From: a virus
Length of the DNA stretch: 54,944 nt
IMG/VR virus record: IMGVR_UViG_3300015371_000046
Span: 1-54,944 of that record
Direction: 5' to 3' (one strand)
In this document: positions 3,923 to 45,909 of the stretch, one piece after another
Layout of the letters: every line of letters starts with the position of its first letter
How positions within the stretch are numbered: position 1 is the stretch's first letter
The notes under the pieces: model-generated
The model's input: only the letters and a program-made list of their open reading frames with translations
What the model was told of the DNA's origin: nothing
Database searches by the model: none
Translations under genes and position numbers: made by a program

Positions 3923-4204
3923 ATGCCCAGATGGACAAACATTTTTTTCCCGGCCAGAAATGACAGGGACATCCTCAAAGAACTAAAAGAAATAGAAAGA
4001 CTAATCACAATGACAAAAGAAGAACTAGCTCAGGCACTTGATGATCTCGGTGCTCAACTCAACAAAGCACTGGCTGAAATCATCGCCGCAATCCAAAACG
4101 TGGACAACATTCCGCAAGACATTATCGACAAACTCAACGCTGCCAAGGCAACTGCTCAGGCTCTTGACGACCTGAACCCAGACGCTCCACCTCCCGGACC
4201 ATAA
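3923..4204 (+). CDS. Small coiled-coil protein
   Basis: A 93-residue protein, mostly helical. From about residue 30 the chain MTKEELAQALDDLGAQ leads into alternating leucine and alanine heptads, then a proline-rich tail (APPPGP). An internal ATG at 4010 could give a 64-residue form lacking the basic N-terminus. It has no enzyme motif. Its place next to the portal gene suggests an assembly or structural accessory; function unknown. Confidence 0.7.
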   Translation: MPRWTNIFFPARNDRDILKELKEIERLITMTKEELAQALDDLGAQLNKALAEIIAAIQNVDNIPQDIIDKLNAAKATAQALDDLNPDAPPPGP

Positions 4205-42214: not shown

Positions 42215-42444
42215 TTCTTTTTGGGTTCTATTTCCGGTGTGAGTGTGGTCTGACGTTGGACAATCATCCCGGTCAGAGCGCCGACTAACGTTGAGGCTAT
42301 TGAAATGATGGCGGTCAGGATGGCAGGGTCAGCGTAGTTCTTATAGAATAAGGTGAGGCACAGGGATAGCACGGTTACGAAAGCCAGAATGCAGATGGCA
42401 ACGACTGCGATTCTGCGGACTAGATCACGGCCAAAGTAATTCAT
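42211..42444 (-). CDS. Holin-like two-helix membrane protein
   Basis: A 77-residue protein. Two hydrophobic segments: RIAVVAICILAFVTVLSLCL and IISIASTLVGALTGMIV, then a charged C-terminus (EIEPKKK). Size, topology and coupling (ATGA) to the endolysin match a class II holin. It forms the inner-membrane lesion that times lysis. Confidence 0.78.
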   Translation of the reverse strand: MNYFGRDLVRRIAVVAICILAFVTVLSLCLTLFYKNYADPAILTAIISIASTLVGALTGMIVQRQTTLTPEIEPKKK

Positions 42445-44609
42445 CTCTTAACCTTACCTCGCTTGAGGGGTACGAGTCGAGCTTTCTTTAACTGGGTCAT
42501 CACATACTGGCGGCGTGAAGGTGAACCTTCGATGTATTTCTCAAGCCATCGGACATGATCGCCGGGGGTTTCATCGTCCCCGTTAGGAAAGGGAGGAGCC
42601 GCAGCCTTAACCTCTACGGCCCCCGAAGAAGTTTGAGCGGGGTTACCCATGGTTGCTTGGGGCGGTACCTGCTCACCAGAGGCTACACAGGGCATGACTT
42701 TATCAGCCTGCCTTACTTGAGTTTCCCCGCTCAAAATCATTTGTATCTCAGCCTTAACCTCATCATTTATACCTCCGTAAGACCAAAACTGTCGTGCAAA
42801 TGGGGGTGGCATTTCACCCTCCATGGTGTTTACCCAATGAAACTTGTCATGCTCAAAGAACCATGCGTATGCTCCCAGAGCATTGAACTCACTGAACTCA
42901 CGGTAAGTCTGTGCTTTTACGTAGTCGCCGAGGGTAACCTTATGCTTATCAAAACAAAATTGTCTTAATTTTGGGTAGAGCCATGTAGGAATCATCATGG
43001 GCAGACGCCGCATAAATTCGAAGGGGGGGTCTTCGCCCAGAAATTTTTGGGTAATAACTTTCCATGGCGTTTGGGTATGCTCGTAGGGGGTGTAGTACCA
43101 GATCAGTTTGCTGTTTGTTCCGAGGGGTTCTCCCATATCTCCTGCCGAGAAGAAATCCTGTGGCGTTACGGGGCGCGTGAAGAGGGTATCACTGTCGATG
43201 TGGAGGATGTAGTTTGCTTCGTAATTGGTGATGTTGTCGGCGTAGAGTTTATGGATTTGCTGGGATAAATAACCGTCTTCGCACTCATCATTCATCTGTT
43301 TCCACTCGTAGCCTTGGGTATCGGCAAAAGGAACGTCCTCGGGTGAAACGATCCAAATCTTCCTAAATCCAGAGGCATATTTGTTGATGGATTGGAGGCA
43401 AAATTTCAACCACTTGTAATCTTCGGGGTATGTACGGATGAAAATGTCGTAAACGGGTCCTGATTTCTTGAAGTATTTTCCAGCATCTATTGGGCCTTTG
43501 TGCTGTAGGGAATGGAGTTGGTCACAGGGCGGGAATGAAGCGGGGTGCAGAGGAGAAGGATTTTCGCCTTCGTTGGATGAACCGGGAACACCGGGAGGAT
43601 GAACAACAACCCCCTCTAAGCCGGTCGGCCCCGCCTGGGCCTGGCTCCTCTGCATTTCTAAAGATTGTGTTCCATCCGATGGCACTTCGGGCACAACCAC
43701 ATCACTTTTAGCCGCTCGTTGTAATTCGGATGGTGACCGTGAAGCGAAGTCTGAGTCCCGCAACGTTCGCAGTTCTCCGGTCTTTGTATTTTGCCAGACA
43801 GAAGCGCCGCCTCCACTGTTTTTCGTGCTAGTCTGCGCGGACCCCATTTTTGATTCTTGGGCCAATTTTTCGTGCGTTGTCTCCATGCCGCTCTGGTTTT
43901 GTTCTCGCATGTTCGGCATGGTCTCCAATACGGAGACCCCGGCCTGCGTCTGAATTGCTCGATAGGTTGTTCCCGCTGGCACTTGGTGCACGTTCTTTTC
44001 ATTTCTTAGGAGTTTAATGAGCGAGCCATCTTTTGAGGAATGAAAAATGACGGCTTCGGGTCTTATCTGTGTGGTTAATTCATGTCGATTAGTAAAAGTT
44101 TCGTGCCGCCAAGCGTGCTCAATGAGTTTAGTGAAGTGCGCCTGCGGAACAATCTGATGGGCACTCGCCATATCCCAGGCTACGCCCGCGGCTCTATTGG
44201 CTTCCCCTGCAAAGTTGTAGATTGGGTTGGGATAAACCCCGACTCCCGACATGTGGCGTGGAATATCGTTGACCTGCACGTCATCGCCCATGAAAGGTTT
44301 ACCGCACTTACCAAATTCATCGTCGATCGCGTCCAGCCAGTTAGGTTTTAGGGGGATAGCGTCAGGCTCCAGCCATAGGAAAGATTTAACGTTGGTGGCA
44401 TTATTGGACAGGTAAGAATTGACGGTACGGAACATATAATTGGCGCCCTCGGGCCAGCCGTCTATGTCGGCCTTGGCTTCGAGGTCACGAACATCGGTAA
44501 ACAGGGGGCGTGCGGCGTCCAGGATGGCCTGTACGGTGTTTTTTGGGCAGCGATGGTCATGGCACAGCAGGAGGGTATGGCGAGGCTTCAGGGAGCCTAA
44601 TTCAGCCAT
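42441..44609 (-). CDS. Two-domain glycosyltransferase with nested HNH gene in the linker
   Basis: A 722-codon frame. Residues 1-200 are a GT-A-like domain (FLWLEPDAIPLKPNWLDAI, AVIFHSSKDGSLIKLL). Residues about 203-318 coincide with an HNH gene in another frame and are polar low-complexity. Residues about 378-625 are a second transferase (VYDIFIRTYPEDYKWLKF, YILHIDSDTLFTRP, DUF6492-like). The coding pattern continues upstream of ATG 44609: in frame, from about 44691, it reads ARILVTLAYCLRDQDITLQL, like other N-termini of this type, but with no ATG, GTG or TTG. The true start has probably been lost to the HNH gene at 44666. Confidence 0.75.
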   Translation of the reverse strand: MAELGSLKPRHTLLLCHDHRCPKNTVQAILDAARPLFTDVRDLEAKADIDGWPEGANYMFRTVNSYLSNNATNVKSFLWLEPDAIPLKPNWLDAIDDEFGKCGKPFMGDDVQVNDIPRHMSGVGVYPNPIYNFAGEANRAAGVAWDMASAHQIVPQAHFTKLIEHAWRHETFTNRHELTTQIRPEAVIFHSSKDGSLIKLLRNEKNVHQVPAGTTYRAIQTQAGVSVLETMPNMREQNQSGMETTHEKLAQESKMGSAQTSTKNSGGGASVWQNTKTGELRTLRDSDFASRSPSELQRAAKSDVVVPEVPSDGTQSLEMQRSQAQAGPTGLEGVVVHPPGVPGSSNEGENPSPLHPASFPPCDQLHSLQHKGPIDAGKYFKKSGPVYDIFIRTYPEDYKWLKFCLQSINKYASGFRKIWIVSPEDVPFADTQGYEWKQMNDECEDGYLSQQIHKLYADNITNYEANYILHIDSDTLFTRPVTPQDFFSAGDMGEPLGTNSKLIWYYTPYEHTQTPWKVITQKFLGEDPPFEFMRRLPMMIPTWLYPKLRQFCFDKHKVTLGDYVKAQTYREFSEFNALGAYAWFFEHDKFHWVNTMEGEMPPPFARQFWSYGGINDEVKAEIQMILSGETQVRQADKVMPCVASGEQVPPQATMGNPAQTSSGAVEVKAAAPPFPNGDDETPGDHVRWLEKYIEGSPSRRQYVMTQLKKARLVPLKRGKVKR
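43658..44002 (-). CDS. HNH endonuclease nested in a glycosyltransferase gene
   Basis: A 114-residue protein. Zinc-binding starts (CTKCQREQPIEQF, CRTCENKTRAAWR) precede a core CERCGTQTSLHGHHPNYNER, VMWLCPKCHRMEH. The HNH-type His pair and cysteines are in place. It is read in the +1 frame relative to the transferase, whose frame has no stop across it. ATG 44002 lacks a strong ribosome site. A homing-type nuclease. Confidence 0.85.
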   Translation of the reverse strand: MKRTCTKCQREQPIEQFRRRPGSPYWRPCRTCENKTRAAWRQRTKNWPKNQKWGPRRLARKTVEAALLSGKIQRPENCERCGTQTSLHGHHPNYNERLKVMWLCPKCHRMEHNL

Positions 44610-44665
44610 CCAGTTGACGAGTTGGAGGGTGATGTCCTGATCTCTGAGGCAGTAGGCTAAAGTAA

Positions 44666-45163
44666 CTAAGATACGTGCCTCCAGTTCCGTTTATTAGCCG
44701 CACGGCTAACGATTGATTGATCTACTCTTAAATGTTTTGCCATTTCGGTTTGTGTCCATCTATACGGGTTTTGTCTTATCCATCGTACTTGTTCTTCGGT
44801 TAATTTTGCTCCAAATACGGCCTCGCCTTCTCTTCTTGCACCCCAACGTCCTTTCTTTATGCAATCCTGCATATTGTCTTTGAACGTTCCTAAAAACAGG
44901 TGCTCTGGATTTATGCAGGCTGGATTATCACACTTGTGAAGAACGCACATCCCTTCTGGAATATCCCCTCTGAATACCTGCCATGATAAACGATGAGCAT
45001 CGTGACTTTTTCCACCGCTTTTTCCATTCGAAATCGTTAATCTTCCGTACCCAGCTGGGGTTCTCGTTCCAATCCAGATCCAGCAACCGGTGTTTTGATC
45101 TTCTCGGTTACGAGCCAGCAATCTTTCTTTAAGATTTGCTCCTTTGGGTGCGTAGGATTTCAT
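44666..45163 (-). CDS. HNH endonuclease with C-terminal helix-turn-helix
   Basis: A 165-residue protein. Residues 1-110 form an HNH_3-type nuclease (CWIWIGTRTPAGYGRL, AHRLSWQVFRGDIPEG, VLHKCDNPACINPEHLFLG). Residues 115-165 form a DNA-binding helix-turn-helix (FGAKLTEEQVRWIRQNPY, MAKHLRVDQSIVSRA, then NWRHV), the usual homing-endonuclease specificity tail. Its 3' end overlaps the first codons of the glycosyltransferase. The short string CGTAT occurs just before its start and near its end. Confidence 0.9.
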   Translation of the reverse strand: MKSYAPKGANLKERLLARNREDQNTGCWIWIGTRTPAGYGRLTISNGKSGGKSHDAHRLSWQVFRGDIPEGMCVLHKCDNPACINPEHLFLGTFKDNMQDCIKKGRWGARREGEAVFGAKLTEEQVRWIRQNPYRWTQTEMAKHLRVDQSIVSRAANKRNWRHVS

Positions 45164-45204
45164 ACGAGCATAAATTTTAAGTTCTGGGGTGGAACGTTTT
45201 GGGG

Positions 45205-45408
45205 TTAGAGGATTTCTCCGTAGTTTTCGACACGTAAGGTGCGTCCGTAAACCGGACCAAATGGCCCTCCGGACTGTTGAGCCACGGCATCGGTATGCAC
45301 CTGATCCAGCCTGATGTTGACAGGATGGTTTACGGGCATCAGGGAGATGCCAACTGCCACCGCGGCAAATAAGAGTGCTAATGCTGTTTTAATGGTAATC
45401 ACCTCCAT
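45205..45408 (-). CDS. Small secreted or membrane-anchored protein
   Basis: Sixty-seven residues from ATG 45408. N-terminal hydrophobic helix IKTALALLFAAVAVGISLM, then a short polar tail with GPVYGRTLRVENYG. A GGAGGTGA sequence lies just after this ATG and could serve an even later start. It overlaps the preceding gene by 20 bases. Function unknown. Confidence 0.5.
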   Translation of the reverse strand: MEVITIKTALALLFAAVAVGISLMPVNHPVNIRLDQVHTDAVAQQSGGPFGPVYGRTLRVENYGEIL

Positions 45409-45679
45409 TCGTTTCGAAGTAAACTGGTTCGCCCATGTTTTTGAGTTGGGCTTTGATTTTGGTAATTCTGCTTTTGAGTTCACGGATATAATCGCGGTCT
45501 TGGAGTTCAAACACCTGTCCTTCGTGGGTTTGGAGTAGAGCGGTTAAAAACTGGTGGCGTTCCTTGTGGCGTAGGACTCGGGCATCATGTTCCACGCGGA
45601 AACGTTTGGGTTGACCTTTCATGGAGCGGCTTTTACGAGGTTTTTGTTCCCATGGTTCAAGTGTTGGTCGGCCTCTCAT
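45389..45679 (-). CDS. Basic hypothetical protein
   Basis: A 96-residue, very basic protein: KPRKSRSMKGQPKRFRVEH, then a helix ALLQTHEGQVFELQDRDY and ELKSRITKIKAQLKN. Probably binds nucleic acid, judged by charge only. The start overlaps the upstream stop (ATGA). Confidence 0.6.
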   Translation of the reverse strand: MRGRPTLEPWEQKPRKSRSMKGQPKRFRVEHDARVLRHKERHQFLTALLQTHEGQVFELQDRDYIRELKSRITKIKAQLKNMGEPVYFETNGGDYH

Positions 45680-45909
45680 TGTTCTCTGGCTTTTAGCATT
45701 TTGTCAGCAAGGTTGAATGCCGCTTTGGTGTAAGAATACCCTCCTTTTACCTCAGGCTTTTCGGCTTCGTCAGGCATAAATCCATTACAGAGCATCCCCT
45801 GTAAGGCTTTAGCTGCGAAATAATCACGAAGCGTCATGCCGCAAAGATAATAGTAGTCATCGTGTACGTTTCGATCCTGCGGCTGCGGAAATGCTAGTGG
45901 GTTATTCAT
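45676..45909 (-). CDS. Conserved small phage protein
   Basis: Seventy-seven residues. The segment GMTLRDYFAAKALQGML with a later AFNLADKMLKARE is a pattern seen repeatedly in small phage proteins of unknown function. Begins MNNP, as do two other small proteins on this arm. Overlaps both neighbours. Confidence 0.72.
   Translation of the reverse strand: MNNPLAFPQPQDRNVHDDYYYLCGMTLRDYFAAKALQGMLCNGFMPDEAEKPEVKGGYSYTKAAFNLADKMLKAREQ

Follow-up and report, generated by a model that had tools for sequence, protein, structure and literature searches.

Organization of the locus

The window, by which we mean the whole stretch of DNA analyzed, comprises the 54,944 bases of an IMG/VR virus record in which an HNH endonuclease gene (HNH1) lies upstream of a glycosyltransferase (GT) gene, both on the minus strand. 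HNH1 (44666..45163; 165 aa) ends N-W-R-H-V-S-stop and matches PF13392 (HNH_3; 2e-13, above the cut-off) and phrog_1872 (6e-34). The ORF caller placed the start of the GT gene at ATG 44609 and its end at 42441. Read from an ATC codon at 44670..44672, the gene extends over 743 codons (42441..44672) and encodes a GT-A-like domain (GT1; 44001-44672), a linker, and a second, Stealth_CR2-like transferase. The inter-domain linker contains, out of frame (+1) and also on the minus strand, a nested second HNH-type gene, HNH2 (43658..44002), that matches phrog_2340 (3e-18).

The earlier note had described the GT frame as lacking a standard start where it overlaps the HNH1 end at 44666, and this description was confirmed: upstream of the first in-frame ATG (44607..44609), the frame is open for 27 codons up to TAA 44693, and no ATG, GTG, or TTG is found among them. 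Listed outward from ATG 44609, the codons are TGG AAC GTC CTC CAA CTC ACC ATC GAC CAG GAT AGA CTC TGC, followed by TAC GCC TTA ACT GTT TTA ATC CGT GCA GAG CTG GAA ACG; the near-cognates that matter are ATC 44672 and CTG 44684. The end of HNH1 falls inside this open frame, giving a 25-nt overlap of the two frames ahead of the HNH stop. In another assembly, L001 (IMG/VR 3300015374_000030), 12,499 of 12,502 bases agree with the window, and none of the three differences is at the junction. The start-less junction is therefore not an error of a single contig, although the two samples may not be independent. The insertion of HNH1 at the GT start is carried only by these two near-identical genomes.

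Start position in glycosyltransferase relatives

A profile scan for the GT found 97 loci, and the best 80 were taken; 11 were unaligned at the N terminus and five were fused to a long upstream frame, leaving 64 scored loci. An ATG lies exactly at the residue of the window's ATC in 37 of the 64, and another 25 have a standard start within −10 to +3 codons of it, so that 62 of 64 begin at or near residue 1. The two without a standard start are L079, the window's twin, and L103, which has ACG at the GT start position (3995-3997; T-H-V-V-L-P-Y) with no HNH gene seen just upstream and in which the ACG may be a sequencing error. All eight of the closest other records (L080-L087), none of which has HNH1 before the GT, start exactly at the position of the window's ATC. 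Homologs beginning at the internal methionine, named beforehand as the observation that would count against the insertion, are thus not what was found. L002 and L006 (56% and 55% identical) likewise have a GT without HNH1, and in both the first Met lines up with ATC 44672. Their GT genes also carry, after the GT1 and GT2 domains, a methyltransferase-like part, which we take to be FkbM-like and which is absent from the window's gene in the alignment. No match to the GT was obtained by tblastn against 50,697 phage records, and a search for GT1 relatives in bacterial genomes found none.

The N termini of the relatives read M-L-I-A-L-A-Y, M-I-V-V-F-P-Y, or M-L-V-I-Y-P-F; in each case the Met coincides with the ATC of the window. 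From this register, the native start of the GT is M-L-V-T-L-A-Y and the preceding A-R belongs to the HNH tail, which corrects the M-R-I-L-V-T-L-A-Y that had been expected.

An AlphaFold2 model of the GT1 domain (40-sequence alignment; pLDDT 96.7, pTM 0.92) places strand 1 at residues 2 to 7 and helix 1 at residues 9 to 25, with the internal ATG at residue 22. The domain has no Pfam family match, and a sequence search against solved structures gave just one chance-level match; by Foldseek, its fold is GT-A, that of glycogenin-type enzymes (E 1.1e-7 and TM-score 0.55 against glycogenin). Translation from ATG 44609 to give a shortened, working enzyme would have the merit of using the first in-frame ATG. 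However, in the model an enzyme begun here would lack strand 1 and the greater part of helix 1, no Shine-Dalgarno sequence precedes it, and the scored relatives begin at or near residue 1, so that use of the internal ATG, which the earlier note had listed among its options, appears very improbable.

A stranded native start upstream of HNH1

Directly 5′ of the HNH1 ATG, the window reads AAAATTTATGCTCGTATGA, and the short frame ATG CTC GTA TGA (M-L-V-stop; 45160..45171, minus strand) lies here. The stub ATG CTC GTA is identical to the first 9 nt of L087, a match equalled at 4 of 109,872 window positions (both strands). With L002, the stub region has AAATTTATGCT in common and matches at 12 of 15 positions (−6 to +9), which 3 of 109,860 positions equal; L081 gives the same 12/15 and also has AAATTTATGCT in common. 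L085 and L086 match at 13 of 18 positions (equalled at 5 of 109,854), and L080, L082, L083, and L084 lend the stub no support at these lengths. The simplest account of these matches would be an insertion of ∼499 nt, almost exactly the HNH ORF, within the first three codons of the GT. The proposal that the HNH gene sits at the GT's first codons thus holds up: HNH-free relatives carry the upstream residues, and what looks like the native start is stranded 5′ of HNH1. The stub ends in a TGA that overlaps the HNH ATG (ATGA), so that HNH1 is probably now translated by way of the start that belonged to the GT.

The window's codons at 44672 (ATC TTA GTT) are a better match than the stub to the starts of L083 and L084 (ATG TTA GT; 7/9 versus 6/9), as would be expected if one G to C substitution had turned the GT's own ATG at 44672 into ATC and the stub ATG CTC GTA were coincidental. 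Against such a point mutation, which we regard as improbable, stand the rarity of positions that match L087 and L002 as well as the stub does and the recurrence, at the L288, L440, and L439 loci described below, of ATC behind an equivalent tail. It is hardly credible that HNH1 and the GT are joined by frameshifting or that the insert is a removed intron or intein; the 25-nt overlap of the frames would suit such a scheme, but no slippery heptamer was seen on inspection of the overlap, an Rfam search of 42400-45700 gave no match, and the insert is about the length of the HNH ORF plus 1 nt, leaving no room for a ribozyme core.

The string CGTAT, earlier pointed out before the HNH start and near its end, does occur at both places (45166 and 44675), but also inside HNH1 at 44819 and 44766. 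With four copies in 500 nt and the last in HNH coding sequence, where it forms part of the family's C-terminal codons (W-x-H-V/I), it is neither a junction mark nor a target-site duplication.

The HNH tail carries a putative ribosome-binding site

HNH_3 relatives mostly end W-x-H-V/I, and in HNH1 the codons TGG AGG at this place yield a Shine-Dalgarno-like GGAGG (44679..44683) 5 nt before the ATC. The idea that the tail serves the next gene was formed on a first set of loci, its definition was fixed, and it was then tried on other loci (80 loci, of which three earlier-seen contigs were left out; of the 77 entered, the script removed 12, leaving 65 scored). An SD-forming codon follows the terminal Trp in 14 of 23 loci with a following ORF that starts inside the tail and in 4 of 42 without one (Fisher one-sided p = 2e-5). 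When the stop of one gene overlaps the start of the next, the upstream gene must carry the ribosome-binding site of that start, and the association is expected on this ground. The HNH1 tail shows the form that would serve a following start, though the window has no standard start there. A hairpin over the GGAGG, pairing with GCCUC inside the GT, is no more stable than in shuffled sequences (z 0.05). Two other HNH_3 genes, L037 3519-4091 and L067 369-1199, lie directly before Glycos_transf_2-like genes, and glycosyltransferases may be frequent neighbors of HNH_3 genes.

The same junction at an unrelated gene

One exception in the tail-test table, L288, has the tail TGGAGGCACATATCATAA followed by I-I-S-A-L-I-Y-W in the frame equivalent to that of the GT. 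Its following gene encodes a small membrane-like protein that is unrelated to the GT and has no Pfam match. At 11 of 14 loci of this membrane protein the first residue is encoded by ATG, and the other three (L288/L434, L440, and L439) have ATC after GGAGG plus 5 bases. The HNH genes of L440 and L288 are 78% identical. At L439, the HNH gene is gone: the end of the upstream gene and a stub, AAATGAT, run straight into TTGGAGGTATATATC, leaving the short scar TTTGGAGGTATATATC, a junction that reads as a deletion scar after loss of the HNH gene. A further HNH-like stretch (L439 896-1075) lies upstream of the gene that precedes the scar.

Over 55 codons, L439 and L440 differ with a dN of 0.029 and a dS of 0.526 (dN/dS 0.06), and dN/dS is 0.11 for L434-L440 and 0.14 for L434-L439. 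Membrane-protein genes with the GGAGG-N5-ATC junction therefore stay under purifying selection without an ATG. An in-frame TTG is also present at all three loci, four codons upstream of the ATC and directly on the GGAGG, where the window has CTG; an AUC start in the membrane-protein genes is for this reason favored by position only.

These loci bear on the possibility that the HNH insertion simply knocked out the GT and that the intact long frame merely shows recency. The lack of a standard start, the restriction of the insertion to two nearly identical contigs, and the weakness of AUC as a start (PMC10158994, as far as the accessible text goes) all speak for a knock-out. However, the whole GT frame is intact, including its first 21 residues, the N terminus shows no sign of decay relative to L002, and three loci with the same junction before another gene are under purifying selection. 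We therefore consider a knock-out unlikely, though the least unlikely of the alternatives.

Duplicated and recoded N termini at HNH elements

At L288, the HNH gene itself begins M-I-S-A-C-I-P-W, resembling the I-I-S-A-L-I-Y-W of the gene that follows. Similar pairs are MIISRTPFRIS/LIISRTPFRIS at L304 (GHMP kinase) and MRATAAWLRRRG/VRASAAWLRRRG at L066 (terminase), with further duplications at L287, L302 (portal), L294 (DNA polymerase A), and L252. A test requiring six residues, with all cross pairs of loci as the null, was applied to 98 of 126 viral HNH loci (short or repeated matches omitted); 15 were dropped and 83 scored. The 1% line was exceeded by seven of the 83 (0.83 expected) and a stricter line by five (0.01 expected). 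The test was shaped on this viral set before being frozen, so that the only independent repeat is a bacterial-genome set run with the identical script (80 entered, 6 dropped, 74 scored), in which five of 74 loci exceeded the line against 0.64 expected; just one of them, L384, is beyond doubt, and the other four are weaker. In a second control, which took the right side from places 200 to 1800 nt beyond, scores above 31 were reached by 7 of 71 loci compared with 2 of 928 control places, a comparison biased because five of the 71 loci were chosen genome matches. The candidates L309, L283, L265, and L253 were rejected on reading, as was an AAA start at L300, where an in-frame ATG lies eight nt ahead of the stop.

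In 11 duplicated loci, the two copies encode the same residue at 71 of 107 codons after the start; 69 of these codons are degenerate, and 48 of the 69 differ between the copies (two of the loci, L389 and L392, are off register and add almost nothing). At L384, a cytosine methylase gene of a Pseudomonas strain, the left copy reads MISYGSVCSGIEAATQ and the right copy GITYGSVCSGIEAATQ. Codons 1 to 15 of the right copy are 56 to 76% identical to those of 12 HNH-free relatives from the genus Pseudomonas (12 of 42 matched genomes taken in). Relative to the four nearest of the HNH-free genes, identity is 64 to 71% over codons 1 to 15, whose amino acids are 93% identical, and 90 to 97% over codons 30 to 60; the recoding is therefore local. 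The relatives do not clearly resemble the left copy more than the right one, so either copy could be foreign. HNH-free relatives also vary more at the N terminus than in the body (73-93% among six).

In a minority of the related HNH genes, then, the host N terminus is present twice, once fused to the HNH gene and once, recoded, at the HNH end, more often than chance allows. In the window, the left side reads ATG CTC GTA and the right ATC TTA GTT, and both shared codons (L-V) are recoded, in a three-codon stub that is below the length of the test. L032, the window's twin in the viral set, went unscored on account of this short stub, and the window is accordingly placed in the duplication group tentatively, by its M-L-V/I-L-V pair and its junction. 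These results suggest that such elements sometimes bring along a rewritten front end of the gene, at times without an AUG start.

A second HNH gene nested in the linker

HNH2 has a homolog at L006 5665-6042 in the same place and frame (39% identical), and the GT linkers of L002 and L080 are short and lack it. Among 80 loci of the HNH2 family, another frame is open through the match in 10, and the enclosing frame exceeds 700 codons solely in the window's twin (L159) and L006 (L181). HNH2 is thus a hidden HNH gene of the ShiLan-like kind, lying out of frame within a host gene that keeps its own reading frame uninterrupted. The layout is that of the ShiLan domain, described in the available part of PMC11855218 as a hidden out-of-frame HNH in a phage methylase; HNH2 differs in belonging to another HNH family and in residing in a glycosyltransferase inter-domain linker, and HNH1 is not of the ShiLan kind. 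HNH2 may be an active homing gene.

Discussion

We propose, with a probability of roughly two in three, that a free-standing HNH homing element inserted at codons 1 to 3 of a phage glycosyltransferase gene and that the GT restarts from a non-AUG codon. The homing-endonuclease gene would have left the native ATG (45171) upstream and would use this start itself, the GT resuming at the HNH stop with ATC TTA GTT; HNH1 is predicted to cut an uninvaded target and copy itself into it. Ribosomes finishing HNH1 would restart on the GGAGG and begin the GT at AUC 44672 or, less probably, at CUG 44684. Of the options listed earlier for GT translation (a poor start, the internal ATG, or re-initiation), a poor start, which would be reached by re-initiation, is the best supported, and we infer that translation begins at the ATC. 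In the portions available of the sources, AUU is a poor start in vitro with anticodon CAU, mismatched third bases yielding very little product (PMC10158994), and CUG initiation reaches 0.86% of that of AUG (PMC11497404). AUC pairs badly with the initiator tRNA, and the GT, if made, is probably made at a low level.

A broader reading is that certain HNH_3 elements occupy the opening codons of their target and leave its N terminus twice, fused to the HNH gene and recoded at the 3′ end. The recoded copy, together with a ribosome-binding site in the HNH tail, would restore the invaded gene, and it may also remove the cleavage site. That this HNH class of phages and prophages represents natural home-and-rescue elements, which are aimed at the first conserved codons of a gene, capture its start and ribosome-binding site, carry a synonymously recoded 3′ copy and a Trp-codon ribosome-binding site, and block re-cutting, some of them, including the one at the window's GT, restarting at AUC, is a tentative proposal to which we give slightly less than even odds.

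Parts of this arrangement are already known, namely HNH genes adjoining or splitting phage genes and endonuclease-borne replacement ends in fungal mitochondria. Like HNH1, the T4 mob/seg genes and Aeh1 mobE are intron-less and lie in or beside phage genes, the host gene can survive the insertion, and the nrdA/mobE UAAUGA is an ATGA-type coupling as at the window's stub and HNH1, an overlap layout called suggestive of translational coupling (review of T4 elements, PMC2988022, in its accessible sections). In those phages the host gene is split or flanked, whereas in the window codons 1 to 3 are invaded, the start is stranded, and the proposed restart is non-AUG. In the accessible parts of PMC3630166 and PMC7315562, mobile ORFs in Allomyces atp6 and Glomus atp6, atp9, cox2, and nad3 bring a duplicated, synonymously diverged host piece that replaces the native end, and Tremella introns show an N-terminal duplication like that of the HNH group here. 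The fungal cases are mitochondrial and involve C-terminal replacements with LAGLIDADG or GIY-YIG enzymes, or introns; the present group, unlike them, consists of phage or prophage HNH genes with N-terminal duplications and a ribosome-binding site in the HNH tail. Synthetic home-and-rescue drives combine a nuclease with a recoded piece that restores the target (PMC7968924, available portion); they are engineered and CRISPR-based, and the likeness is one of analogy only. In the literature covered, which takes in few subscription papers, we found no description of a recoded N terminus carried by a phage homing element.

The usual view is that free-standing homing endonucleases persist through insertion between genes or within introns and inteins. 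Insertion into a start codon, combined with delivery of a rewritten front end, would represent another way to a harmless insertion. Such a home-and-rescue pattern predicts non-AUG starts, would account for the truncation of genes of this type by gene callers, and offers a natural counterpart of engineered rescue drives.
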